From NCBI GenBank assembly GCA_003158175.1, contig PMHJ01000037.1, positions 242,433 to 306,432 on the forward strand: DNA of 64,000 nt, written 5' to 3'. Under the pieces are notes generated by a model. It saw only the letters and a list, made by a program, of their open reading frames with translations. It was not told the DNA's origin and did no database searches. This document shows positions 7,584 through 35,043 of the stretch, one piece after another. The position numbers and the translations under genes were made by a program. The stretch is from Candidatus Cybelea septentrionalis. Lineage in GTDB: Bacteria; Vulcanimicrobiota; Vulcanimicrobiia; Vulcanimicrobiales; Vulcanimicrobiaceae. Within the stretch, counting starts at the first letter, position 1. The number at the start of each line of letters is the position of its first letter.

Positions 7584-7677
7584 GGGAGCGTACGGATCTG
7601 GTGGTTCGCACGGTCTTCAAAATCGCTGAGGTCGTCGCAAGGCGACTGGTAGGTTCGATTCCTACACGCTCCCGCCA
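7584..7677 (+). tRNA. selC: tRNA-Sec (anticodon UCA)
   Basis: The 94-nt molecule folds as a bacterial selenocysteine tRNA: 8-bp acceptor stem (GGGAGCGT with ACGCTCCC), 6-bp D stem with a 4-nt loop, anticodon loop CTTCAAA giving UCA (7617-7619), a long variable arm (GTCGTC-GCAA-GGCGAC), a 5-bp T stem around TTCGATT, discriminator G and an encoded CCA. The 8+5 acceptor/T architecture and long variable arm separate it from tRNA-Ser and suppressors. The anticodon stem has a G-U pair and one A-C mismatch at its base. An integrase follows 86 bp downstream, so it is the insertion target of the element. Confidence 0.92.
7654..7677 (+). other. Inferred attachment site (attL) in the 3' end of selC
   Basis: Tyrosine integrases of genomic islands usually cross over in the T arm and 3' end of a tRNA and rebuild the gene. 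The integrase gene lies immediately downstream and reads toward the tRNA. The exact core cannot be fixed because no second copy was noticed in the window; boundaries given are the T loop to CCA end. Confidence 0.5.
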
Positions 7678-7762: not shown

Positions 7763-8926
7763 CTAGGCGGTCCGAACGGCCCCATCGAGGTGGTTGTCGA
7801 GCAGCTGCGCTGCCGCCCTGCGTTGCTCGTCCATGATATGGGTGTAGACGTTTGCCGTTACGTTAATCCCGGAGTGCCCGAGCAGCTCGCTCGCCGTCTT
7901 CAATGGGACGCCGGCGGCGAATGCCAGTGACGCGTATCCGTGGCGTAGATCGTGGAACCGTGTTGCGGGCAACTTCTTGCGCCGTACAAGACGCGAGAAC
8001 TGACGCGAGAGCTCGTTCGGGTTCCAGCGCGAGCCGTTGTAGCGGTCGAACACGACCCCTTCTGCACCCCGGTTCCCAATACCGAGAAGTCGGTAGCGCT
8101 CTTCCTGTCGCTCGCGATGGACTCGTAGCGCTGTCACAACGAAGTCCGGCATAGATACGTCACGGCGCGACCCTTTCGTCTTGGGAGCCTTCGTGATGAT
8201 CCTACCGTCGAGTAGAGCAGCGGACTGGCGCACGCGGAGCACGGCTTTATCGAGGTCGATATCGCACCAACGAAGTGCGCACAGTTCGCCTCGCCGCAGC
8301 CCTGTCCCGATCGCCGCGATCACGGCGGCTTCGATTTCGGTACCCTTAGCCGCCTTGAGAAGCTTCCGCACGCGCTCGCCGTCGAACGCGACGTCCTCAC
8401 GGTCTTCTATGAGCGGCGGCTCGACATTACGCGCGATGTTCCGAACGCCTTCGTAGTTCTTGGAACCCCATGCGAGCACAGATCGCACCCGAATGAGAAT
8501 GTTCCGCTTCGTGCGACCGCACAGCGGTTGCCCCTTGCGCTTTCGCGTTGAGCAGTCGCGCGCATCATCCAAAATGCGCTCGACGTGCTCCCGGGTTAGC
8601 TTATCAAGACGAACGTTGCCGATCTTCGGGCGCACGTGTTGATTGATCGTGCGCCGATAGAGTGCGAGCGTCGTCTCCTGCAAGCGGCCTTTGCGCGCAT
8701 CGAAATAACGGTCGAGCAGGTCCCCAAAGGTCATCTTTGAGGATGCCTCAAACTCGCCCGCCTCGATCGCGTCGAGACGCTTTCCGAGAAGCCGGCGCGC
8801 TTGCGCCTCGCTCTTTACGGATATCGTTTCGTAGTGCTGTTTGCGCTTGCCATCGAGTACACGGGGTTCGTCGTAGATGAGCATCCACTTTCCCGATGGC
8901 AAGAGCTTTACGCTCCCTTTTTTCAA
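7763..8926 (-). CDS. Tyrosine recombinase / ICE integrase
   Basis: A 387-aa site-specific integrase expected to integrate and excise the element at selC. The N-terminus looks like an arm-binding domain (KKGSVKLLPSGKW), then a SAM-like core-binding domain, then the catalytic domain. Catalytic residues are visible: Arg in GTGLRRGELCALRW (about residue 208), H-x-x-R in HDLRHGY (about 327), His in LGHSG (about 349) and the nucleophile Tyr in NVYTH (about 362). Its start overlaps the stop of the excisionase-like gene by 4 bp, so the two form an operon. It appears intact. Confidence 0.95.
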   Translation of the reverse strand: MKKGSVKLLPSGKWMLIYDEPRVLDGKRKQHYETISVKSEAQARRLLGKRLDAIEAGEFEASSKMTFGDLLDRYFDARKGRLQETTLALYRRTINQHVRPKIGNVRLDKLTREHVERILDDARDCSTRKRKGQPLCGRTKRNILIRVRSVLAWGSKNYEGVRNIARNVEPPLIEDREDVAFDGERVRKLLKAAKGTEIEAAVIAAIGTGLRRGELCALRWCDIDLDKAVLRVRQSAALLDGRIITKAPKTKGSRRDVSMPDFVVTALRVHRERQEERYRLLGIGNRGAEGVVFDRYNGSRWNPNELSRQFSRLVRRKKLPATRFHDLRHGYASLAFAAGVPLKTASELLGHSGINVTANVYTHIMDEQRRAAAQLLDNHLDGAVRTA

Positions 8927-15124: not shown

Positions 15125-15613
15125 GCCTCTCAAGCAGCACGTTATAAACTAACTGGAAAGCGATATCGATTCCCGTTGACGCACGTTCAGATCTCCATAT
15201 TCTCGCCGGAACTCCGCGACAGACAAATCGTCGACAGACAAATCGTCGAAATCAAACGTCTGTCCAACGCCACCGAGAGAACGCACCCGCGTCCCCGATT
15301 CCGGCGCCGCCCACTGGACAAGGCTACCGCGCTCGCGCCTGCCTAAACGGCTCCATCGTGCGCTGCTGAGCAAATGAGTAGCCGAAACGCGGCAGCCGCC
15401 GCAACCGTCGTCTCCGATCCTCGCGCTGCGCGCTGCGGTCTCCGTCTCGGCGCTAACGCGCCGCAGTTGCCCCGGTTGCCGCGCTTCGGCTCAGGCCACT
15501 GCATTAGCAGCGCCCGTTGGAGCCAAGCCTGTCACCTAAAGGATATGGGGCTTCGACGCGCCGCTCAGACGCCAATAGTTCGCGCGCGATAGACGCGCGA
15601 GGAGGATACGGTC
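15125..15613. other. Gene-free leader region with inverted repeats and a short tandem repeat
   Basis: No convincing gene lies here. It holds a perfect two-copy 15-bp tandem repeat (GACAGACAAATCGTC, 15218-15247) and a GC-rich region (15418-15603). In that region TCCTCGCGC at 15418-15426 can pair with GCGCGAGGA at 15595-15603, which overlaps the ribosome binding site of the gene at 15614. The hairpin could therefore limit translation of that gene. Confidence 0.5.
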
Positions 15614-16672
15614 ATGATCGAAGGGACCCCACTAAGCCAGCTGGCCCAGCAACTGATCGCCGAACGCCAGAAGCAGCGCGACTTCGTCGCAGACACGCGC
15701 CGGCTCACCCCGCATCCGGTGGGTGCAGGGGTGAGCATCGAGCTTCAGCACACCGACGGCACAACCGCCGTCGCGCCCACACGGTTCGCACTCGGCCAGA
15801 TTGCGAGCCACTACAAGATCCCCATGGCCTACGTCGATCGGATGACCCAAGCCGGCGCCGGGCCGCTACTTGCGCAGAACCTCGCGTACTGGTTTGCCGA
15901 GCAGCCGTCAACGAGGCTGCTGCGAACACGCACTGGGGAAACCGGAGAGCTACGGGCATTTCTCTCGCGCCGGTATCGTCCGCTCGACAACTACGAGCTC
16001 GCCGAAGCCGTGATCCCGCAGCTTGAGCGGCCCGGCGTGCATGTCGTGTCAGCCCGGATCACCGACACTCATTTCTACCTTCAGGCGACCAGCGATCGCG
16101 TCACGGCAGAAGTCCGCCGAGGCGACATCGTCCAGGCAGGCGTGGTAATCGCCAACAGCGAGGTTGGGGCATCGTCGCTGCGGATTTCGCCCATGGTTTA
16201 TCGATTGATCTGCACGAACGGTTTGATCTCGGGATCCGAGCTTCGCCAGCACCACGTCGGCCGAGGGATCGATCCTGCCGATGATGGAGCATCGGAGTTT
16301 TACAGGGACGAGACATGCAGGGCCGTCGATCGAGCGTTCTGGCTGAAGGTCGTTGATACCGTCGATGCCGCGATGAACGAAGCGCTCTTCGGTCAACTGG
16401 TCGACAAGCTTCGCGTCGCGGCCGGAGAGCCGCTCGATGCAAAGCCGAGTGAGATCGTGGAAGTCGTTGCCCGGCGATTCGGCTTGACCGAAGTGGAGCA
16501 GGACGGCGTGCTTCACCAGCTCGCACTCGGCGCGGACTGGACTCGCTACGGTGTCGTCAACGCCGTAACACGTATCGCCGAAGATTCCGCGACCTACGAT
16601 CGCGCGGTTGAACTCGAGCGCATCGGTGGCGAGGTCTTGGATCTGCCGGCTTCGGCGTTCAGTCACAACTGA
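15614..16672 (+). CDS. DUF932 family plasmid/phage-like protein
   Basis: A 352-aa protein of the DUF932 family, common on plasmids, phages and ICEs and of uncertain function. Diagnostic stretches are HYKIPMAYVDRM, TGELRAFLSRRYRPLDN (followed by a short helix), SARITDTHFYLQ, and the SSLRISPMVYRLICTNGL segment. GAGGAGG is the ribosome binding site. The length is normal. It is preceded by an inverted-repeat leader and followed by a terminator, so it is probably a monocistronic unit. Confidence 0.85.
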   Translation: MIEGTPLSQLAQQLIAERQKQRDFVADTRRLTPHPVGAGVSIELQHTDGTTAVAPTRFALGQIASHYKIPMAYVDRMTQAGAGPLLAQNLAYWFAEQPSTRLLRTRTGETGELRAFLSRRYRPLDNYELAEAVIPQLERPGVHVVSARITDTHFYLQATSDRVTAEVRRGDIVQAGVVIANSEVGASSLRISPMVYRLICTNGLISGSELRQHHVGRGIDPADDGASEFYRDETCRAVDRAFWLKVVDTVDAAMNEALFGQLVDKLRVAAGEPLDAKPSEIVEVVARRFGLTEVEQDGVLHQLALGADWTRYGVVNAVTRIAEDSATYDRAVELERIGGEVLDLPASAFSHN

Positions 16673-22388: not shown

Positions 22389-22808
22389 CTACGGTGAGGA
22401 CGAAGCTGTTGCGTGTGATTGCAATTCTTCGACAGCGGCTTCAAGCCGACGAACCCGAGCGCGCAACTCCACCACCTCGTCGTGAAGAAGCAGGGCGCTC
22501 TCGGCGGTTTCCAACTGAGCCCGCTCAAGCTCCCGACTCCCGTCACGACGCCTCTTCCGGTCCCGAGCCCCCTCCGGAGGTCCCGCCGAAAGCGGGATAG
22601 CCGGCTCCGACTCTCCCGCCAGATACCAAGGCGAAACCTTGAGCTCCTTAGCTAGGCGGAGCGCCGCCTCCAGCTTGAGACTCTTGATGTCACCTGTACG
22701 CATCTTGCGCGCCGCGTCGGCCGAGACTCCGAGAATGTAACCCAGTTCCGTGTCACTCAGACCCCGAACAAGCTCCTTAAAACGTTTACTGAAGTTAACA
22801 ACGGCCAC
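22389..22808 (-). CDS. XRE-family transcriptional regulator with coiled-coil tail
   Basis: A 139-aa regulator. The N-terminal HTH (LSDTELGYILGVSADAARKM) is followed by an Arg-rich linker and a coiled coil (LHDEVVELRARVRRLEAAVEEL) for dimerisation. The start is GTG at 22808 with no clear ribosome binding site, so it may be leaderless or weakly translated. It diverges from the gene at 22997, and a perfect palindrome in between is its likely operator. This is the layout of a phage- or ICE-type repressor switch. Confidence 0.8.
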   Translation of the reverse strand: MAVVNFSKRFKELVRGLSDTELGYILGVSADAARKMRTGDIKSLKLEAALRLAKELKVSPWYLAGESEPAIPLSAGPPEGARDRKRRRDGSRELERAQLETAESALLLHDEVVELRARVRRLEAAVEELQSHATASSSP

Positions 22809-22830
22809 GCGGTTAGGATACCATAAGAAG

Positions 22831-22848
22831 TCAATAGTTTCCTATTGA
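22831..22848. promoter_or_regulatory. Palindromic operator candidate for the XRE regulator
   Basis: TCAATAG-TTTC-CTATTGA is a perfect 7-bp inverted repeat with a 4-bp spacer. Its right arm overlaps the -35 box of the rightward promoter, so a bound repressor would block RNA polymerase. Confidence 0.55.
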
Positions 22849-22872
22849 CCTTTATCGTGAGCTTGCTATTAT
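22845..22872 (+). promoter_or_regulatory. Sigma-70-type promoter toward the gene at 22997
   Basis: TTGACC, a 16-bp spacer and TATTAT read rightward. The same place carries TATAAT on the opposite strand (22869-22874), so leftward transcription of the XRE gene may also start here. The leader to 22997 is ~120 nt and GC-rich with a small inverted repeat (CGGCGTA/TACGCCG). Confidence 0.5.
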
Positions 22873-22996
22873 ACTGGTAGGAAGTAAGACCAACGCGATG
22901 CCTCCTCAGGCCAGGGCTTCGGCGTACCGCACCCTTACGCCGTAGCCTAAGCCTACCGGTCGCCACCACGCCCCTTGCCTCCGCTCGCGAAACGGC

Positions 22997-23401
22997 ATGG
23001 CTACTATGGACTCAGACGTCCCTTCCGGTGCTTCCGCTCAGGCGTTCGACTACTCGCACCTGAACGACAGACAGCTTCGCTCGGCGATTCGGTTCGCGGA
23101 GAAACATCTTCGCTGGGTCGAGGAAGATCACGTCACGCTTCTGCGGGCCTACCGTGAAGAGATCGACGCGATGCGCCGGCACCTCATCGATCGCATGCTG
23201 AGGCGAATGGTTACTAGCTCGGCACCACTCTCGGGTGAGCAACAGCGCGACCTAAGCCACGCCTTCGAGCGGCGCGCTATGGACGCCAGCGAGATCACGG
23301 TAGCCGTCCGTGCAGCTTCGAGAGGCCGAGTGGGTCACCTCGATGCGTTGACGGAGATCGAGGCGATGGCGTTGCTTCTGCGCTTAGACCGAGAAGCGTG
23401 A
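22997..23401 (+). CDS. Hypothetical element protein
   Basis: A 134-aa helical protein without recognised domains (e.g. RSAIRFAEKHLRWVEEDHVTLL). It follows the rightward promoter controlled by the XRE regulator, so it is likely a repressed early gene of the element. Two more small genes follow on the same strand. Confidence 0.55.
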   Translation: MATMDSDVPSGASAQAFDYSHLNDRQLRSAIRFAEKHLRWVEEDHVTLLRAYREEIDAMRRHLIDRMLRRMVTSSAPLSGEQQRDLSHAFERRAMDASEITVAVRAASRGRVGHLDALTEIEAMALLLRLDREA

Positions 23402-23447
23402 GTGCCAGGACTGCTGGCCAGCCTGGTCTGTAGAGGGGATTAGTCGC

Positions 23448-23858
23448 ATGTCCTACGACGACGAGCTCAACTGGTTGCGCGACCGCGGCGTTCAAGTTGA
23501 CCGCAAGGGTCGGATCATCGTCAGTCTTCCGGCGGTACCGGATGGTGTTGACTTCGACGTTGTTGAGCGCGAGCCGTCGATCGCCGAACTCATGCGCCGC
23601 GAGATCAATCCTCGCCTGGCGGGATCGCACGGGCGGCGTCGCCGCCGCTTGTCAACGCCGGTCCAGCGTAATCCAGGCGCTACACGAATTTATCAGCAAC
23701 AGGCGGCGCGTGTCGGCCGGCCGACGATCGGCTCGGAGGCGCGGGTTCACGTGCAAACGATGATCGCTCAAGAAACGCGGGATATTCTTGTAAAACACCG
23801 CGTAACGCTCGCCGACGTCTTTGACGATTGCGCCCGAAGACTCTTGCGTGTGCCCTGA
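23448..23858 (+). CDS. Hypothetical element protein
   Basis: A 136-aa protein. The N-terminal part is acidic (MSYDDELNWLRDRGVQVD), the middle is Arg-rich, and the C-terminal helices (VHVQTMIAQETRDILVKHRVTLADVFDDCARRLL, in two stretches) look like a small DNA-binding or dimerisation domain. It overlaps the next gene by 38 bp in another frame. Not recognised. Confidence 0.5.
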   Translation: MSYDDELNWLRDRGVQVDRKGRIIVSLPAVPDGVDFDVVEREPSIAELMRREINPRLAGSHGRRRRRLSTPVQRNPGATRIYQQQAARVGRPTIGSEARVHVQTMIAQETRDILVKHRVTLADVFDDCARRLLRVP

Positions 23859-24072
23859 CGACGACGAAGCGGCAGGCGGAGAGAAGCGCCGGCCGTCTGC
23901 CGGGCGCCCAAAGTCGGGACGCCCGAAGCGTGTCCGCATTACGACGACCATAGAACCGTCCAAACTCGCGGTCCTCCGCGAACACGCACGCTGCGAGAAG
24001 AAATCTTTAGGGCAGCTCGCCGACGAGTACGTCGCCGAGCATTTCCCTGCACCCGAGATTCCGCCGGAATGA
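23821..24072 (+). CDS. Putative ribbon-helix-helix DNA-binding protein
   Basis: An 83-aa protein. The basic segment RVRITTTIEPSKLAVLREHA followed by KKSLGQLADEYVAEHF fits a ribbon-helix-helix strand plus two helices. The start is uncertain: TTG at 23821 lies within the preceding gene, and no good ATG exists before the domain. It may regulate this small operon. Confidence 0.45.
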   Translation: MTIAPEDSCVCPDDDEAAGGEKRRPSAGRPKSGRPKRVRITTTIEPSKLAVLREHARCEKKSLGQLADEYVAEHFPAPEIPPE

Positions 24073-26652: not shown

Positions 26653-28821
26653 ATGGGTAAACGTCAAAAGCTGCTTTGCTCTGCGGGTGTTGCCGTGGGC
26701 TGCGTCGTCTTAGCCTTAGCGCCTGCCGCGCCTTCCCGTTCGGCGGACAATGATGCAGCAATTCGCGCGGCATACAAAACGATGGAACGAGCGCTGCTCG
26801 CAAAGAACGCAGCGCAACTGTCACAGATTTTAGCACCTGGTTTCTACCAATGCTTGCTCGACGGTACTATCGAGAGCCGGGATGCTTATATCCGAGACGA
26901 GACGGACGCCGATCCAGGAGTAACCCTGTCGTCGCTCACCTATCAGCCGTTGAAAATCACGGTGCGAGGTAACGAAGCCGTTGCCGAGGTGACACATACC
27001 TACGTCGGCACGTACGCCGTTAACGGAATTCCAAAGCCGTTTAACGGCACGGTGCATCTGGCGGAGCAATGGACGGTGGGCAGCGATGGCACATGGAAAC
27101 TAGTCTTGAGCACCCCGCAGGACGCCGTTTCATACGTAGATGGTAAACAGATCGTAAACCAACGACAGCAGGCTCCGCCGACAAGTGCGCTTATTGCGGA
27201 GCTGCAAGCCCATGCGCTAGTGATTCCTACGCTCGCCTTCGATGCGGATTCCGCTCAGCTTGCAAAAGTCGGCGCTGCCGTCGGCGATTCCCACATTGTT
27301 GGTATGGGTGAAGGCAGCCACGGTACGAGCCAGTTCTTTGCGTTCAAGGACCGCCTGTTCAAGTACCTCGTCGAAAGGAAAGGCTTCACGGTCTTTGCGA
27401 TGGAGGCGTATTGGGGCGCTGGCCTTTATGTGGATCGCTACATCAAAACCGGGCGCGGTACCGCGGAACAGGCCGTCGCCTCACTCGCCTTTTGGACCTG
27501 GGATACCCCCCAGGTAGTGGACCTTGTGCGGTGGATGCGCGAGTACAACGCTAAACCCGGAAACCATCCGATCTTGAGCTTCGTGGGCATTGACATGCAA
27601 AGCGCAATGGGCGCGATCGGCTATCTGGCAACGTACTTCAGCTTGCATGACTCCGCGCACGCGGCCGGTGTCAATGAGGCACTCAACTGCGTGGCCGCTG
27701 CGGCGGCATACTTCCGCGCCAAGCCGGACGCAGGATGCCGGGAAAAGGTCGTGGCTGTCGGCGACCGCCTTGGTGCACTCAAGAACGTTCCTGACCTTGG
27801 CGTCGCGCAGCATTCTGTGGCGATCATTCTGCAGTATCTCGATTGGAAGAACACACCGGAAGAGGATCAACTTGGAGCCCGCGATCGCGCCATGGCAGAG
27901 AACCTTAAATGGCTGGTCGCTTTCCACCCAGACGCCAAGATCGCTGTCTGGGCGCATAACTACCACATTGGGACTAGCGCAAAGGAATTGCCGTCTCGAC
28001 CGATGGGCTCGTACCTGCGCGCGGCGTTTGGCCGTGGCTACTACGCGATCGGGCAGACGTTTGGGAGCGGGACAGTGCGCGCAATAGTTAGTCCTCACGG
28101 CCTCCAGGCCGTAACCGTGCCTCTGAGCCCTGGCGATACTATCGCTGCCGCTTTCAGGTGGCTTAACGGTACGGCGGCCTTTATCGATCTTCGAGGACTC
28201 GCGGCGACTGGCGCGTTACAGGCCTTCTTTTCAACCGATCGCAGCATTGAAGAGATCGGCGCGACGATCGATCCCCTACATCCCGCGTACGTCGTACCGA
28301 TGATTGTGCCCAATATGTTCGATGGCTTGGTTTACATACCAGTGAGCACTGCCGCAACCGATGGATCCCGTTATTCGGAGATGCAACGCGAAATACGGAC
28401 AAAAGACGGCAGCGCCTGGGAGGTGTCCGGCCTCGGTTTTAATGATGTGACGGCGGAGCCTTCCACTGACAGCGCGACGCTTGCGAATAGCGACGCGCTA
28501 AACTCATCTACCAACCAGCTGTTACGGCGCTTCGATGCCGCGGGCTATGCTGGGGTAACCGTGCGTGTTACCGGTGAAACGCGAGCTAAAGGCTTGTTGG
28601 GTTTTGTATACCCATTTAGTCAGGCCGTGGCACCGAGCGGTTCGGTCGCGAGTTCGTCCCAAGGGAAAGCGACAAGTGGCGCGGGCAATAATACGTGGCA
28701 AAAGTTTGCAATTAATCTGAACGTACCGCGTAACGCCCGGTTCGTCGACGTAGGCTTCTGGGCGGAGGGACTAGGAAGCGTCGAAGTCCGAAAACTCAAA
28801 GTGACGCGCCCGTCGAGCTAA
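26653..28821 (+). CDS. Secreted erythromycin-esterase family protein with N-terminal NTF2-like domain
   Basis: A predicted periplasmic or secreted protein of ~722 aa. I start at ATG 26653 (MGKRQKLL) because a signal peptide follows directly; an upstream in-frame start would bury it. After the signal (cleavage near PSRSADN) comes a ~125-aa SnoaL/NTF2-like (DUF4440) domain. Then an erythromycin-esterase domain follows with VGMGEGSHGTSQFF (Glu and His), MEAYWG, GIDMQS and WAHNYHIG. A C-terminal ~150-aa beta-rich domain ends it. Ere enzymes hydrolyse macrolide lactones, but many family members have other or unknown substrates, so resistance is only a possibility. Confidence 0.85.
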   Translation: MGKRQKLLCSAGVAVGCVVLALAPAAPSRSADNDAAIRAAYKTMERALLAKNAAQLSQILAPGFYQCLLDGTIESRDAYIRDETDADPGVTLSSLTYQPLKITVRGNEAVAEVTHTYVGTYAVNGIPKPFNGTVHLAEQWTVGSDGTWKLVLSTPQDAVSYVDGKQIVNQRQQAPPTSALIAELQAHALVIPTLAFDADSAQLAKVGAAVGDSHIVGMGEGSHGTSQFFAFKDRLFKYLVERKGFTVFAMEAYWGAGLYVDRYIKTGRGTAEQAVASLAFWTWDTPQVVDLVRWMREYNAKPGNHPILSFVGIDMQSAMGAIGYLATYFSLHDSAHAAGVNEALNCVAAAAAYFRAKPDAGCREKVVAVGDRLGALKNVPDLGVAQHSVAIILQYLDWKNTPEEDQLGARDRAMAENLKWLVAFHPDAKIAVWAHNYHIGTSAKELPSRPMGSYLRAAFGRGYYAIGQTFGSGTVRAIVSPHGLQAVTVPLSPGDTIAAAFRWLNGTAAFIDLRGLAATGALQAFFSTDRSIEEIGATIDPLHPAYVVPMIVPNMFDGLVYIPVSTAATDGSRYSEMQREIRTKDGSAWEVSGLGFNDVTAEPSTDSATLANSDALNSSTNQLLRRFDAAGYAGVTVRVTGETRAKGLLGFVYPFSQAVAPSGSVASSSQGKATSGAGNNTWQKFAINLNVPRNARFVDVGFWAEGLGSVEVRKLKVTRPSS

Positions 28822-28970
28822 TCGCTCCCCCTTGCTGCCTACCCCTCTGCACGGCTTCGCGAAAGCGGGCCGTGTTGCTATGCAGGCATTGCTGCATTGC
28901 GGGCATCGCAGCGTGGCATTGCAGTTCCGCGCACCTGAAAACCGGCGACGGTGATGCCGCAGGTGGGCGT

Positions 28971-29160
28971 TCCTTTCGCGCCCGAGGCGCTCGCCGTTGT
29001 TTGATAGATCCTAGCCACGCCCGTCGAGGCGCGCAAGGAGCGGCTTCCGGTCCTCACTGCGCTCCGGTCCATGCCTCTCCGCTTCGCTTCGTCCTTGCGC
29101 GCCTCGCCGGTCGCGGCTGTGCCGGATCCATCAACGGCGAGCGCCTCGAGCGCGAAAGGA
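28971..29160 (+). repeat. Long nested inverted repeat in the leader of the gene at 29170
   Basis: Outer arms at 28971-28999 and 29132-29160 pair over 29 bp with one mismatch. Inside them, arms at 29025-29039 and 29092-29106 pair perfectly over 15 bp. The whole 190 bp can form one large hairpin or cruciform. The 3' outer arm ends in AAAGGA, part of the AAAGGAG ribosome binding site (29155-29161) of the next gene; the 5' arm starts with its complement TCCTTT. The 28,822-29,169 interval contains nothing else I can support. Confidence 0.85.
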
Positions 29161-29169
29161 GAATCGACG

Positions 29170-29610
29170 ATGTCTCAACTTTATACGATCAAAGATGAAC
29201 GGACTGTCTACTGCCGAGCGGCCATGAAAGCTAACGGCGGTGAATGGAATCCCGTGACTCGTGAGTGGATCTTCCACGACGCGAGCGATCACGCGAATGC
29301 CGCAGCCGAGCTGTACCGGGTGACGCGTCCCACCATCGGGATGCGCGAAGCACTGCAGGCTATGGTTACCGACGGCACGGGAGCCCTCGCGTGGGGCTTC
29401 GATCCGGTGGAGAAGCCGCTTGCGATCGATGAGCTCGACCGCAGCGAGGCCTCCAAGCTTCTCGCTGCCGGCTATGCGGTGCGTCGCGTTCTTGGCGTGC
29501 ATCCGCTCGACGATGTCGAGCAGCCCAGCGATGAGCCCGCAAGCTTCGACTCGTCCGAGTTCGAAGCGCGCGAGCAAGCGCGCCGTCGACGTCGCCGGAA
29601 CGCCGCATAA
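29170..29610 (+). CDS. Hypothetical element protein with hairpin-masked ribosome binding site
   Basis: A 146-aa protein. The start is ATG 29170, 8 nt after AAAGGAG; an upstream in-frame ATG lies inside the inverted repeat and is rejected. The sequence (YCRAAMKANGGEWNPVTREW, then a helical middle and a very basic RRRRRRNAA end) matches no domain I know. Its leader folds over the ribosome binding site, so expression is likely controlled at translation. A terminator hairpin follows. Confidence 0.65.
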   Translation: MSQLYTIKDERTVYCRAAMKANGGEWNPVTREWIFHDASDHANAAAELYRVTRPTIGMREALQAMVTDGTGALAWGFDPVEKPLAIDELDRSEASKLLAAGYAVRRVLGVHPLDDVEQPSDEPASFDSSEFEAREQARRRRRRNAA

Positions 29611-29693: not shown

Positions 29694-30230
29694 ATGATTA
29701 CGACATTCCAAGACGTCACAAGCCATGACACGGAGCCGCGCTCGCGCAACCGGCTGACGACGCGATCGCTACGCGACGATGAAATCCGCGCGATCGCCGA
29801 TGCCAACTACCGTGGCGATAATCCGCTGCGATTCGACTGCGTCAGGCAGGCGGCCCTCATGTTTGAGCGTGCGGGCTACAGCATCAGCCTCTCGCCGGAA
29901 GTCAGCCCCTTGGCAGTCCCGCCGCAACCGATCGTCGTCGGCGACCTGGTCGTCGATGTGATGCATCGTACCGTGCGCTTCGGCCGCCGCGAGCTCGACC
30001 TGAAACCACGCGAGTTTGGTCTGCTCGAAATCCTCGCACGCCATCCCGGCCAGGTTTTCTCTCGCGCGCACCTGCTCGACTGCGTCTGGCCGCGCGACTA
30101 TGACGGTGACGAGCGCACCGTCGACGTCCACATCGCTCGCCTCCGCGGCCGCCTCGGTGCGCGGCTTATCCTGACCGTTCACGGCGCCGGCTACAAGCTG
30201 GCCGCACCCTGTGCAAACCTCGCCGCCTAA
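29694..30230 (+). CDS. Orphan OmpR/PhoB-type winged-helix protein without receiver domain
   Basis: A 178-aa protein. The C-terminal ~95 residues are a Trans_reg_C winged helix: LDLKPREFGLLEILARHPG, VFSRAHLLDCVWP, DERTVDVHIARLRGRLG and VHGAGYKL. The N-terminal ~75 residues are not a response-regulator receiver: no DD...D...T/S...K pattern. It is thus a stand-alone DNA-binding regulator of the element, perhaps sensing something other than phosphorylation. A terminator follows. Confidence 0.85.
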   Translation: MITTFQDVTSHDTEPRSRNRLTTRSLRDDEIRAIADANYRGDNPLRFDCVRQAALMFERAGYSISLSPEVSPLAVPPQPIVVGDLVVDVMHRTVRFGRRELDLKPREFGLLEILARHPGQVFSRAHLLDCVWPRDYDGDERTVDVHIARLRGRLGARLILTVHGAGYKLAAPCANLAA

Positions 30231-30324: not shown

Positions 30325-30972
30325 ATGCCACGAAACCGCAAATCAAACTCGAACGGTACCGCGCTCGCGACCCTCGAGCCGTCCGCGCTGCCGACGATCA
30401 GTCGTTCCGAGGCGAACAAGCTGCTCAAGCAGCGTGCCCAGGACCTCTACCACGAAGCGCGAGCGGAGCGCGAGGATCGCATCCGCCAGTTTGAAACCGA
30501 GTACGGGCGCGCCGACCGGATCGACCACACGCTGCTGCGCGACCTCCAGCACCTGCAGACGCGCTTTGCCGCGATCGCCGCACGTCAGTTCAAGTATGCC
30601 GCCGACAACCACGAGCCGAAGGTCTCGAAGTTTACCAAGCAGCTCGGCGAGATCATCGGCGAACTCAGCTCGCATCTCGCGACCGAGCGCGCTTTGGAAC
30701 TCTTCGCACCGGTCGAGGAACGAGACTTCGTCGGAGCCGGCGGCACGATCGGCCGCAAGGGCCTCGACGATTCGATCCTAGCCAACTACAATGTTATCGA
30801 CGATCCGCTCGGCCCGAAGAACGTGACGCCGACGCCGATCTACCAAGACGCGGACGAAGTTTGCCTCCACGGCGACGTCGAGCCGTACGAGGATGATCCG
30901 TCGCGCGGCGCCTGCGCCGAGTGCGGTGAGGAGTTCGACCTCGCGACCGCCGGCAACACCGAGGACACGTGA
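30325..30972 (+). CDS. Hypothetical element protein with possible C-terminal zinc finger
   Basis: A 215-aa protein starting at ATG 30325 behind a clear AGGAGAT ribosome binding site. The N-terminal half is a charged helical region (KLLKQRAQDLYHEARAERED). The end carries C-x-H and C-x2-C groups (VCLHGDVEPYED, ACAECGEEF), which may bind zinc. It is followed with overlapping stop/start by the gene at 30975. Not recognised. Confidence 0.6.
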   Translation: MPRNRKSNSNGTALATLEPSALPTISRSEANKLLKQRAQDLYHEARAEREDRIRQFETEYGRADRIDHTLLRDLQHLQTRFAAIAARQFKYAADNHEPKVSKFTKQLGEIIGELSSHLATERALELFAPVEERDFVGAGGTIGRKGLDDSILANYNVIDDPLGPKNVTPTPIYQDADEVCLHGDVEPYEDDPSRGACAECGEEFDLATAGNTEDT

Positions 30973-31222: not shown

Positions 31223-31618
31223 TCACTGACTCATCTCGTCGAGTACCTGCGGCGGCTCGGTCTTGCCGAGGAGCCGCTCAAGGCCGTCACCGGAGAGCAC
31301 CAGCCGCGTGCCGTCGACATGATAATCGACCACCGCGCTGCCGAGCTCTTCGGTGATCTTGAGCGTATTCGGGGCGATGACCTGATACTGGCCGGTCGAC
31401 GTCGTCGCCGAATGCCAGCCCGCAGCCGCGAACGCGTCGATTGCGCTGATCGTCACCGTGTCTTTGGGCAGGAACTCGATCGATACGATCGCGGGCCGCC
31501 TCGCGACAACACGATGGTTGACCCATTCCCCAAGCAGAGCATCCTCGCCCGATCCATGCGTGCATCCGCCGAGAATCACAAGCGCCGCTGCGGCGTAGCA
31601 ATGCCCGTACAGCTTCAT
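31223..31618 (-). CDS. Small lipoprotein
   Basis: A 131-aa protein with a lipoprotein signal peptide: basic start MKLYGH, hydrophobic core and lipobox LVILGGC. The mature part is beta-rich (WHSATTSTGQYQVI, LKITEELGSAVVDYHVDG) like small lipocalin-like or DUF-type lipoproteins. Its ATG overlaps the stop of the upstream gene (ATGA). On ICEs such proteins may serve entry exclusion or cell-envelope roles; this is inference. Confidence 0.65.
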   Translation of the reverse strand: MKLYGHCYAAAALVILGGCTHGSGEDALLGEWVNHRVVARRPAIVSIEFLPKDTVTISAIDAFAAAGWHSATTSTGQYQVIAPNTLKITEELGSAVVDYHVDGTRLVLSGDGLERLLGKTEPPQVLDEMSQ

Positions 31619-31968
31619 GGCTTTTTCGTATCCGGCCGCTGCACGGCGGAGGAACCGCCATTGCGCGTTTGCAGCGGCTTGCGTCGCGCGGCGTTTCTTC
31701 CGCCCTGTTTCTGCGTGTCCGGCGTCTGTTTGCGCCGCCGCTGCACGGCGAGGCGCAGCGTATTCGTCTTGATCGGGTAGCCACTCTCGCTCATCTGTTT
31801 GGCGATCTCGGCGTACGTGGCCCCGCGCTCTTGCGCTGCACGAATCTTTCCTTCGATGCGCGAGACCAGCACGTCGAGCTCGCGGCGCGACGCCGGCTTC
31901 GGCGACATCGCGTCGAGGCTATCCCCGATCTTTGCGATCAACTCATCCGACAGCATTTCTTGCCTCAT
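31615..31968 (-). CDS. Putative DNA-binding accessory protein (HTH-like)
   Basis: A 117-aa basic protein. An N-terminal helical part is followed by a helix-turn-helix-like run (GATYAEIAKQMSESGYPIKT, then TLRLAVQRRRKQ) and a long basic tail. Proteins with this pattern occur beside mobilisation genes of conjugative plasmids. It is divergent from the mob operon, upstream of the small lipoprotein gene. An alternative start four codons later has a better ribosome binding site (GAGG). Confidence 0.6.
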   Translation of the reverse strand: MRQEMLSDELIAKIGDSLDAMSPKPASRRELDVLVSRIEGKIRAAQERGATYAEIAKQMSESGYPIKTNTLRLAVQRRRKQTPDTQKQGGRNAARRKPLQTRNGGSSAVQRPDTKKP

Positions 31969-31999
31969 TATTGCCTGGATTTGTATCCATATGAAATGA

Positions 32000-32027
32000 T
32001 TGACTTTCCTATGGAGGTTGTTATGAT
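32000..32027 (+). promoter_or_regulatory. Sigma-70-type promoter toward the mobilisation operon
   Basis: TTGACT, a 16-bp spacer and TATGAT lie 216 bp upstream of the mobilisation gene at 32243. The leader between contains the inverted repeats at 32118-32229. Confidence 0.5.
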
Positions 32028-32117
32028 TCTAGCATGGCTCTTGCACCGGCGCACCAGGCAGGCAACACGCCCCAACTCTTTTTCACGACGCAAGCCGGTG
32101 GCTGTGCGTACAACGCC

Positions 32118-32229
32118 TGCGGCGTCGTCCGCCCAGCGCAGGGGAGCGAGGTCGCGTCGCCTTCGGCGCCGCTCAGCTCGCGTGCGGACGTGCCGGCGTC
32201 GGGGTCGCTTCGCTCAGCCCGACGCCGCA
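32118..32229. repeat. Competing inverted repeats upstream of mob genes (oriT candidate region)
   Basis: TGCGGCGTCG (32118-32127) pairs with CGACGCCGCA (32220-32229). The same 3' segment can instead pair locally as GGCGTCGGG (32195-32203) with CCCGACGCC (32218-32226), whose loop is TCGCTTCGCT-like. The location directly before a relaxosome protein and relaxase gene makes this the best place to look for the transfer origin; a nic site is not identifiable by eye. Confidence 0.45.
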
Positions 32230-32242
32230 CGACGAGCGCGCA

Positions 32243-32584
32243 ATGAATGCCGGGTTTTCGCCCTCGAAGCGTAGCGAGCGGCTTTACATCCGGCTCACGG
32301 CCGACGAAGCCGAGTACGTCGCCGGCCTTGCTGATGTGCGCGGGTTGAGCGTTTCGGACTTCGTACGGAAACGCGTTCTTCGAGGCAGCGGCTGTCGATC
32401 GCTAATAGTGAGGCGCCGTGTACTGCCGACCGATGTGGCTGGCACCATCCGCGAGCTAAGCGCGATCGCGTGCGACCTACGCCATCTCGTTGCGCTCGCC
32501 GAGGCGAACAAAGCCATCGCCCCGGATCACCTCACTATATGCCTGGCGGCGGTGCACGCGGCGCTCGACGGGTTTAGCGTATGA
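32243..32584 (+). CDS. MobC-like mobilisation protein (ribbon-helix-helix)
   Basis: A 113-aa relaxosome accessory protein. RLYIRLTADEAEYVAGLADV followed by LSVSDFVRKRVL is the strand-helix-helix of MobC/TraJ-type proteins. A helical C-terminal region (TIRELSAIACDLRHLVALAE) is also typical of MobC. It binds oriT and assists the relaxase. Its stop overlaps the relaxase start (ATGA), showing a mob operon. Confidence 0.8.
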   Translation: MNAGFSPSKRSERLYIRLTADEAEYVAGLADVRGLSVSDFVRKRVLRGSGCRSLIVRRRVLPTDVAGTIRELSAIACDLRHLVALAEANKAIAPDHLTICLAAVHAALDGFSV

Positions 32585-35043
32585 TCACGAAATCCGTTCC
32601 GGCGCGAGCGCACACGCGGACCTTTGCCGTCGGCGTCGACTACATTACGCGGCATACGCACCAGCGTGCCGTCGCGATGGCTGGGCACAGCTTCGAGCGA
32701 GGCGTGAACTATGCCAACGCGCCGGAGAAGGCCGAGTGGGTCCATCTGCGTGGCGTCATGTCGGTTGAGACGGCGGCCATCGAGATGGAGGCCGTCGCGG
32801 CGTTGTCATCGCGCTGTCGCGACCCTGTCTACCACCTGATCATCGCTTACGCCAAGCGCGAGCGGACAACGCGCGAGCAGGTCGTCAGCGACGCGGAGCG
32901 CCTGCTCAAGGCGATCGGTATGGAGAAGAGCCAGTACGTGCTCGCGGCGCATAAGGATACGGATGACTTCCACGCGCACGTGATTGCTAACCGCGTTGGT
33001 CTCGATGGCCGGGCCAACGACCTGTGGCATGAGCGGATCGTCCGCGAGCGTGTTTGCGCGGAGATCGCGGCCGAGCGCGGTTGGGATATCGTCGTGGGCC
33101 ACCACAACCGCGACATCGTCCAGCGCATCGAGCGCCTACACGAGCTGCCAGCTGAGCCGCAGCGGCGGCTGAGCGATGGCGCGTACCGCCGGCTGCACGA
33201 ACGCGGGGCGCTGCCATGGCAAGAGAGCGCACGACCCTACGTGCTCGATGCCGTCGATCGCGCACACGATTGGAGCGACCTACATCAGCGCCTTGCCGCC
33301 CATGGTGTCGTCGTGAAGCTCGTTCGACGTGGCGAGCGCGTCCAAGGCCTGGCATTCGCCGAAGGCCTCGATCGCAGAGCACCCGGGTGCGCAGCGTCCC
33401 GTATCGATGCGCGCTGTGCACTGTCAGCGCTCGAACGCCGCTTCGGGCCGTTCGCGCCATCGCGCGATCCCGTTCCAGACATTGCGCGTGTCACGCCATG
33501 GAGCGATACAGTTCGTCCCACGATTCTCACCGCCGTTGACGCCGCGACGTCGTGGGAGGATCTCACTGCGCGGCTCGACCAGCACGGTATCGTCATCAAA
33601 GTCGTGCAGCGTGGTGCCCGCGTGCAGGGCCTCGCGTTTGCGCAAGGCCGAGATGCCACTGCCCCGGGATGTGGAGCGTCGCGCATCGATCCGCGTTGCA
33701 AAAAGGCTGCACTCGAGCAGCGCTTAGGGCCATTCCCACGAGCAGGGCGGCAACACGAACGTATCACCGAGCCGAACGTCCGCGCCGACCCACATTTCCG
33801 TAATCGCATTCGCCTGCGCGAGCGAGTGGAGCGTGACGCCTGCACCAATCGAGGCTGGGCGATGCACGAGGCTCGTTCCATCGCTGACCACGCTCGGATG
33901 CGCTCCGAGTATGCCGCGTACCGCGACCGTTTCGCTGCTGAACGCGACCGCGTCACTGGCGCACAGCGAAACGCTGCCTGGGAGCGCGAGCGCGCGCTGC
34001 GGCAGCAGGAAACCCAGCGCCGCCGCGAAGCACGCCAGTTGCTCCGTGCGGCGGCGCGCCTGGGCACGCGCGGTCTGCTCGCACATCAGCTTGCGTATTG
34101 GTCGATCGACGCCGTCATAGCACGCCGGCGCGCGCAGGAGCATGTCGCAGCACGTGTCCGCTGGGAAGCCACCAAGATCGTGCTGGCGTCACAGCGACGG
34201 CTGGCGCGCGAGGAGAAGCCGATGGACTATCGTTCGTTTGTCACCCACAGAGCGCGCACTGGCGATCCGGCAGCGTGGACCGTGCTAGACTCGCTCGTAA
34301 CGCCAACGCGTGAGCAGCAACGCCGTGCGCCGCGAAGTGAACCGCAGCGCGCGACCCTTAATGAAGTACGCGCCCGGCTCGACGTCATCCGGGGCGAGGA
34401 GGAGGCGCGTTGCAAGCGTGCCAACGCCGAGCGCGACGGGCTTCAACGCATCGCACAGCCACTGTCCCTGGACGATGTCCTTGCCGCAGAGCGCCAGCGC
34501 ATCCGACAGCGCGTCGCCGATGCGACTCGGTTTACGGATGTGGAGCGGGTTCGGCTCACGCACCTCAGCAAAGAGAAGCGATCCTGGAACCCGCTAACAA
34601 AGGCCGTAGCGGCAAAGGCGGAGGCGGAGTTGCACGCCGCACACCGCTCCCGCTACGACCAGGCAACTGCCGAAGCGATGCGCGAGTTCGACGAACGAAA
34701 CGTGCCGCAGATCGTCCAGCGCGTCGCTTCCGACGAACGCCGGTACGGGCAATACGTCGCCGCGTCACTGAACCTTGAGCGGGAGATGAACGAAGCGCGT
34801 GTTATTTATAGGCAGCGAATACCGCAGGTCGAGCATCAGGTGAGCGTCCTTGAGCATGCGGGGCTTTCCAAGCTGGACGTCCTCGATGCCACACCAAATG
34901 CGAGCCTCAACCAGCTTGCGGCCGCCATCGATAAGCAGTATCGGGCTGTGCCGGACCCGGTAAAACATGAAATTGAGCGCGCCCTTCGTCGGGAGCGCGA
35001 CCGCGGCCGTTGGCGAGAATCGATATCGATGGGGGACCTGTAG
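32581..35043 (+). CDS. MobP-family relaxase
   Basis: An 820-aa DNA-nicking relaxase for conjugative transfer. The catalytic Tyr is probably Y21 in VDYITR. The metal-binding motif is HKDTDDFHAHV (about residues 123-133), preceded by YHLIIAYAKRE. After the relaxase domain come two copies of a ~75-aa unit (see the repeat entry), then a long charged helical region to the end. Length and architecture fit TraI/RlxS-like relaxases of ICEs. It is coupled to the MobC-like gene and followed by a membrane protein gene. Confidence 0.92.
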   Translation: MITKSVPARAHTRTFAVGVDYITRHTHQRAVAMAGHSFERGVNYANAPEKAEWVHLRGVMSVETAAIEMEAVAALSSRCRDPVYHLIIAYAKRERTTREQVVSDAERLLKAIGMEKSQYVLAAHKDTDDFHAHVIANRVGLDGRANDLWHERIVRERVCAEIAAERGWDIVVGHHNRDIVQRIERLHELPAEPQRRLSDGAYRRLHERGALPWQESARPYVLDAVDRAHDWSDLHQRLAAHGVVVKLVRRGERVQGLAFAEGLDRRAPGCAASRIDARCALSALERRFGPFAPSRDPVPDIARVTPWSDTVRPTILTAVDAATSWEDLTARLDQHGIVIKVVQRGARVQGLAFAQGRDATAPGCGASRIDPRCKKAALEQRLGPFPRAGRQHERITEPNVRADPHFRNRIRLRERVERDACTNRGWAMHEARSIADHARMRSEYAAYRDRFAAERDRVTGAQRNAAWERERALRQQETQRRREARQLLRAAARLGTRGLLAHQLAYWSIDAVIARRRAQEHVAARVRWEATKIVLASQRRLAREEKPMDYRSFVTHRARTGDPAAWTVLDSLVTPTREQQRRAPRSEPQRATLNEVRARLDVIRGEEEARCKRANAERDGLQRIAQPLSLDDVLAAERQRIRQRVADATRFTDVERVRLTHLSKEKRSWNPLTKAVAAKAEAELHAAHRSRYDQATAEAMREFDERNVPQIVQRVASDERRYGQYVAASLNLEREMNEARVIYRQRIPQVEHQVSVLEHAGLSKLDVLDATPNASLNQLAAAIDKQYRAVPDPVKHEIERALRRERDRGRWRESISMGDL
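33229..33738 (+). repeat. Two tandem ~75-aa repeats inside the relaxase
   Basis: Copies at about 33229-33456 and 33511-33738 encode the parallel runs VKLVRRGERVQGLAFAEG / IKVVQRGARVQGLAFAQG, RRAPGCAASRIDARC / ATAPGCGASRIDPRC and LERRFGPF / LEQRLGPF. The DNA has diverged, so this is an old internal duplication. Confidence 0.85.

Follow-up and report, generated by a model that had tools for sequence, protein, structure and literature searches.

A conserved hairpin before the first genes of a putative transferable element in Candidatus Eremiobacterota is probably a promoter for single-stranded DNA

Upstream of a 146-aa gene of Candidatus Cybelea septentrionalis lies a 190-nt hairpin that is probably a promoter of the Frpo kind, working on single-stranded DNA (ssDNA) and serving the first genes of a transferable element. 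Positions are those of the window, the whole 64,000-nucleotide stretch that was analysed, which belongs to contig C23 in a genome of 3.19 Mb. In PMC9849209 Frpo1 and Frpo2 of plasmid F are described as stem-loops that contain -10 and -35 boxes, precede ygeAB and ssb-psiB, and are required for early expression in recipients; PMC7690428 also holds a precedent. Our reading draws on the fold, its conservation and covariation, a bias as to which strand folds, a host-type promoter with its orientation, and the gene layout, all obtained by computation. Taken with its counterparts elsewhere in the phylum, the best reading of the sequences is that these hairpins form a new Frpo-like family.

An earlier note had described at this place two outer arms matching at 28 of 29 positions, a second perfect 15-bp pair nested inside them, and a ribosome binding site lying mostly in the 3' arm, and all of this was confirmed. 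Read directly, the arms 28971-28999 and 29132-29160 pair throughout except for a single C.A mismatch among their 29 positions, and the nested pair, CGAGGCGCGCAAGGA / TCCTTGCGCGCCTCG, has no mismatch. Both pairs are parts of one hairpin, larger than first described; a repeat search gives ungapped arms of 69 nt (28971-29039 and 29092-29160) that are 83% complementary. The features concerned are these:

28971-29160, minus strand (the bottom strand, thought to be the one that folds as ssDNA): hairpin, from fold, conservation and covariance model
29155-29161, plus strand: Shine-Dalgarno (SD) AAAGGAG, six of its seven bases within the 3' arm
29170-29610, plus strand: gene for a 146-aa protein that follows the hairpin, without a match in Pfam or NCBIfam

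Folding of 28960-29185 as RNA, a check proposed in the earlier note, gave a strong structure (-126.7 kcal/mol, z -8.0; none of 200 dinucleotide shuffles folded as well), and among 1596 windows of 200 nt in the 64 kb the hairpin is the strongest GC-corrected fold outlier, at -5.24 sd with the next at -3.85. The SD is almost wholly paired in the full leader RNA (0.05 unpaired over its 7 nt). At the Rfam gathering score nothing matched the hairpin; a selenocysteine tRNA was the one match across the 64 kb. The 146-aa protein has a predicted structure of pLDDT 62.8, too poor for a fold search; a PDB profile search with it returned chance matches only.

The inverted repeat is genuine and not a product of chance, because its pairing is kept across seven homologous leaders with changes on both sides, which also answers a second check proposed earlier, that of homologous leaders. 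Homologues of the 146-aa gene occur in 8 of 99 family genomes, its own genome counted, and the hairpin, with compensatory changes, is conserved before this gene elsewhere in Candidatus Eremiobacterota; those carriers of close homologues that have names are Candidatus Eremiobacterota MAGs labelled palsa. In the seven complete leaders conservation starts at the 5' arm, and the sequence upstream is unrelated in most of them. Standard pairs make up 93.5% of the 402 pair cells of these leaders, and 9 of 58 pairs have changed on both sides (shuffle mean 4.0, 0 of 500 as high; slid controls 0-3).

A covariance model (R1), which scores the window hairpin at 219.6 bits with the window itself part of its alignment, found matches in 18 of the 99 family genomes at E <= 0.1, and a broader model (R2), at E <= 0.01, in 19 of the 149 genomes from the phylum; the matches of both include some outside the hairpin family. 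Before any counts were made we dropped G047 (its hairpin is the same as that of G050), G048 and G060:C91 (runs of N), the weak matches G025, G057 and G135, and G014, G010:1742945, G006, G007:C29 and G000:C23:251883, where the loop part alone matched. Also dropped, as members of another palindrome family, were G016:C62, G002:C99, G009:C170, G000:C23:61928 and G034:C4, and minus-strand matches to the same palindromes were left uncounted. Hairpins of one type are not independent, and the counts below cover few independent families. A pattern of promoter plus loop was no commoner in the 149 genomes than its backward control, and no new hairpin was recognised with it.

The other palindromes are about 170-190 bp long, with ends CCTAGGAGCCTGTAGGG / CCCTACAGGCTCCTAGG and a conserved centre. 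They are scattered over several genomes, out of register with start codons (G000:C23:61928-62119, outside the window; G016:C62:36467; G002:C99:2260; G009:C170:8998; G034:C4:15003), and look REP- or MITE-like. Several assemblies have runs of N inside or at the hairpin (L009/L033, L013 and L012, in G048, G060 and G009), as though the fold impedes sequencing or assembly.

Members of the hairpin family stand before different genes. One directly precedes ssb in G120, an element that holds two hairpins, each tight to a gene. Others precede genes for winged-helix (wHTH) Trans_reg_C proteins (G111, G031, G054), a small gene adjoining a tyrosine integrase (G016:C30 and G007, with related ones in G008 and G000:C3), or a gene for an approximately 185-aa HExxH protein (G030, G050/G047, G108). 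The SD lies inside the arm in the 146-aa, wHTH and HExxH types. The HExxH-motif protein, encoded behind the hairpins of L081, L082 and L086 (G030, G050, G108), has no Pfam match and is possibly a new establishment protein. The window itself has a second, weaker member, placed 84 nt upstream of its gene:

15348-15525, minus strand: second family hairpin, 38.7 bits, no promoter match
15614-16672, plus strand: DUF932 gene (PF06067, 7e-7)

The fold under selection seems to be one of DNA, on the strand opposite the mRNA. With DNA parameters the bottom strand is predicted to be more stable in 15 of 17 hairpins and in all 4 of another set, distinct from these, which makes 19 of 21; for the window hairpin the values are -81.8 (z -11.5) for the bottom strand versus -73.4 (z -8.7) for the top. 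RNA parameters favour the bottom strand in 13 of 17. When the loop was replaced, so that the stem only was compared (energies computed for 20 of the 21), the bottom strand was more stable in 17 of 20, and every type leaned that way but the ssb hairpin, whose stem folds better as the top strand. The consensus pair count of the seven leaders leans the other way (top-strand G.U over A.C, 16 versus 10 stem cells), and an arm-by-arm count on 17 hairpins (30 versus 47) is the opposite of that consensus count; because the two methods gave opposite leanings, these counts were not used alone. With the bottom strand antisense to the gene, its better predicted fold argues against the view that an RNA leader is the structure under selection.

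The same strand carries a promoter of host type. In the alignment of groES upstream regions (14 rows, 2 partial ones dropped) TTGCAC-17-TA[G/A]NAT is found in 12 of 12 genus genomes, and therefore we regard it as a housekeeping-type promoter of the host. Its counterpart in the hairpin is made up as follows:

29031-29036, minus strand: -35 hexamer TTGCGC, beside the loop (compare groES TTGCAC)
29008-29013, minus strand: -10 hexamer TAGGAT, separated from the -35 by 17 nt and situated where pairing is partly mismatched (compare groES TA[G/A]NAT)
29128-29137, plus strand: CCATCAACGG in the 3' arm, with the predicted RNA start near A29130

Read on the bottom strand from loop to base, the 5' arm of the window thus has TTGCGC-17-TAGGAT. 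The corresponding sites are TTGCAC-17-TAGTAT in G010, TTGCGC-17-TAGCAT in G111 and G031, TTGCAT-17-TAGCAT in G054, TTGCAT-18-TAGGAT in G030 and TTGCGT-19-TAGGAT in G050. A matrix built on the 12 groES promoters matches the 5' arm on its bottom strand in 19 of the 21 hairpins, that of the window included (300 shuffles each, p 0.003-0.013), and has no match in any of the 21 mirror arms (p >= 0.09), although the arms are near-copies of each other; the ssb hairpin and the DUF932 hairpin have no match to it. Within the 64 kb the hairpin site ranks second among just nine sites scoring at least 13, and on the top strand of 28700-29170 no site of this matrix exceeds 5.3. The motif tAGgaT is a -10 consensus of GC-rich Streptomyces; a literature search on this point found nothing, and it is not used as support.

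On duplex DNA the hairpin promoter is directed leftward, away from the 146-aa gene, and a transcript from it would run antisense to the gene that lies upstream, both in the window and in L029, L089, L090, L091 and L067. Folding of the bottom strand alone directs it into the 146-aa gene. The sequence CATCA is common to the 146-aa, wHTH and HExxH hairpins, and the start codon lies 32-42 nt past the predicted start near it. In RNA without the 5' arm the SD is predicted to be freer in 13 of 14 hairpins; for the window its seven nucleotides stand at 0.34 in RNA from 29130 versus 0.05 in the full leader.

From these data a mechanism may be outlined. The bottom strand, which would be the transferred one, would enter the recipient as ssDNA and fold, its two arms forming a duplex with the -35 box TTGCGC by the loop, the -10 box TAGGAT 17 nt on, and then about 28 bp of stem. 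The 5'-arm copy of the bottom strand would serve as the non-template and the 3'-arm copy as the template, and host RNA polymerase, using this folded strand, would start near 29130 and proceed through the base of the stem into 29170 and the genes behind. Such an RNA would lack the 5' arm and have a freer ribosome binding site, and it would therefore need no opener. Once the DNA is double-stranded the hairpin would be gone and the promoter would point away from the gene, and expression would be transient; read-through RNA from the duplex would have its ribosome binding site buried and be silenced. The earlier interpretation had as its main point an RNA whose ribosome binding site must be opened, and this part is not supported: the bottom strand is the better predicted folder in 19 of 21 hairpins and carries the host-type promoter. 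Its fold, its buried ribosome binding site and its expectation of conservation stand, and one of the openers it listed, entry of single-stranded DNA during conjugation, was probably right.

The surroundings of the hairpin are those of a mobile element, with the following features conserved or recognised:

22389-24072, both strands: conserved far end of the cluster, an HTH gene (minus), then two ORFs and a small gene (plus), from comparison with relatives, no family match; by eye the small gene looks like a ribbon-helix-helix (RHH) protein
29694-30230, plus strand: wHTH gene, Trans_reg_C without a receiver domain (PF00486, 2e-25)
30328-30972, plus strand: the cluster's third gene, conserved among relatives
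31618-31968, minus strand: conserved ORF divergent from nikA, from comparison with relatives
31969-32242, no strand assigned: conserved non-coding stretch, candidate oriT, from three elements compared
32243-32584, plus strand: NikA-like relaxosome accessory gene (PF21983, 6.7e-8)
32581-35043, plus strand: MOBP relaxase gene (PF03432; NF041893 below its cut-off)

The order in relatives, HTH (minus), three ORFs, [ssb], [cargo], hairpin with 146-aa gene, wHTH, third gene, ORF (minus), nikA, relaxase, is kept with losses, to the limits of their contigs. An ssb gene (PF00436) is found in three elements (L029, L030, L033), and ssb lies once directly behind a family hairpin; tblastn found none in the window. 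On all eight contigs that carry both, the hairpin gene lies upstream of the relaxase, on the same strand and pointing at it. As a general rule the relaxase side enters last. In elements of the HExxH type a coupling-protein gene stands between hairpin and nikA, which is unusual for a leading region.

The candidate oriT contains a duplex-type promoter, TTGACT-16-TATGAT. No nic motif was recognised in it or in alignments of the region upstream of nikA; ATCCTGY, which we take to be a nic motif, is not enriched in the window and is absent from 31969-32242. The sequence CATCCTGC, on the bottom strand upstream of nikA in HExxH elements, was not counted because it overlies the SD and start codon of nikA. 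Directly upstream of the hairpin is an erythromycin-esterase-like gene (PF05139, 26554-28821), absent there in the relatives read and apparently cargo. The selenocysteine tRNA gene (7584-7677) is adjoined by a tyrosine-integrase-related ORF (7796-8734, minus strand) and is possibly an integration site.

This layout resembles that of plasmid F. Its record has ssb, psiB and a DUF932 gene, presumably ygeB, running toward the traM side, and we take the F oriT to lie just before traM; as with the Frpo of F upstream of ssb and the DUF932 operon, the genes here point at an oriT, in our case the candidate, and the hairpin/relaxase arrangement on the eight contigs agrees with the F layout. PMC11541004 describes leading-region anti-defence genes and ssb as sharing one orientation, which allows transcription from the entering strand, and places the relaxase typically in the lagging region. 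Like Frpo1, Frpo2 and the ssi of ColIb-P9, the hairpin would in ssDNA be a long stem-loop rebuilding -10 and -35 boxes. Unlike them, the present hairpins are single, GC-rich, about 145-190 nt long and near-perfect in their arms, with the SD inside the arm, a TTGC-17-TAGGAT host promoter, a MOBP-type relaxase and a home in the phylum Eremiobacterota. In F Frpo a scan for consensus promoters showed no clear site and hence gave no clear positive control for promoter geometry; F was for this reason used as a control of gene layout only.

Two further systems are comparable in part. The RNA-polymerase-dependent sso of rolling-circle elements also uses an ssDNA fold as a promoter (PMC4595007), but our hairpins are in register with the SD and start codon of protein genes. 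The EGeRS of pLS20-type plasmids are likewise conserved repeats before different establishment genes. For these repeats the authors, in PMC8708921, rejected ssDNA promoters, the transferred strand being the non-template one, and no promoter was found in the pLS20 fold, whereas the hairpin here has one.

Three other explanations deserve consideration. It is unlikely that the hairpin is chiefly an RNA translational switch, in which the full leader hides the SD until a protein, another RNA or temperature opens it. The RNA fold (z -8.0), the SD at 0.05 unpaired, the covariation in the leaders and the SD within the arm in the 146-aa, wHTH and HExxH types would all suit a switch; however, the antisense strand is the better predicted folder, even with RNA parameters in 13 of 17, no conserved promoter lies upstream of the hairpin, and a switch gives the fixed-spacing, host-type antisense promoter no role. 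Quite unlikely is a single-strand origin (sso/ssi), where the folded strand draws in RNA polymerase chiefly for the priming of complementary-strand synthesis and the gene is incidental. Priming in vitro is known for Frpo as well, RNA polymerase acts on folds in the sso of rolling-circle elements, and the same promoter evidence is compatible with priming, but the hairpins end at the SD of several different genes and the two of G120 are each tight to a gene, a register that priming does not require. The promoter and priming roles may coexist.

A duplex-DNA element is very unlikely, whether as a leftward promoter, as a site bound by a regulator or as a cruciform. A CTAG-containing stretch like the -10 region also occurs upstream of nikA, so that a shared regulator site is possible, and the wHTH partner could bind such a site. 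Nevertheless, the spacing and hexamers equal those of groES promoters, a better fold of one strand would be unexpected, and leftward transcription would give RNA antisense to the gene upstream, here and at the five other loci named above. An ssDNA promoter of the Frpo kind stays our preferred reading.

A wider proposal we offer tentatively, as possible but short of probable: a portable, strand-gated 'arrival switch' across mobile elements of Eremiobacterota, giving expression from entering ssDNA only, through a host-type promoter that folding rebuilds, with translation of duplex-derived RNA blocked by the SD's place in the arm, and joined to varied settling-in genes, among them the 146-aa gene, the wHTH gene, ssb, the gene for the HExxH protein, the integrase-adjacent gene and DUF932. 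In a distant blastn search against PLSDB (72,556 plasmid records) the hairpin gave short chance matches only, unlike what a relative of Frpo by sequence would show, and the 146-aa protein has no relatives in plasmids or in IMG/VR. The family would belong with the ssDNA promoters and, as far as tested, share no similarity with the sequences of plasmids.

A few enterobacterial plasmids have supplied the best-known ssDNA promoters, and the Frpo literature found deals mainly with enterobacterial and some Gram-positive elements; by title, we found nothing on such hairpins in the literature on conjugative or integrative elements and relaxases of Eremiobacterota. The present family, from a distant phylum, suggests a grammar of host promoter, nearly fixed spacing, strand-biased fold and buried SD, and a clear grammar would let ssDNA promoters be found by rule and not by similarity. 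In unculturable lineages such a family would show where leading regions lie and which strand is transferred, and its hairpins would lead to unknown establishment genes that follow them. The hairpin suggests a means by which 'settling-in' genes could be switched on before the DNA turns double-stranded.
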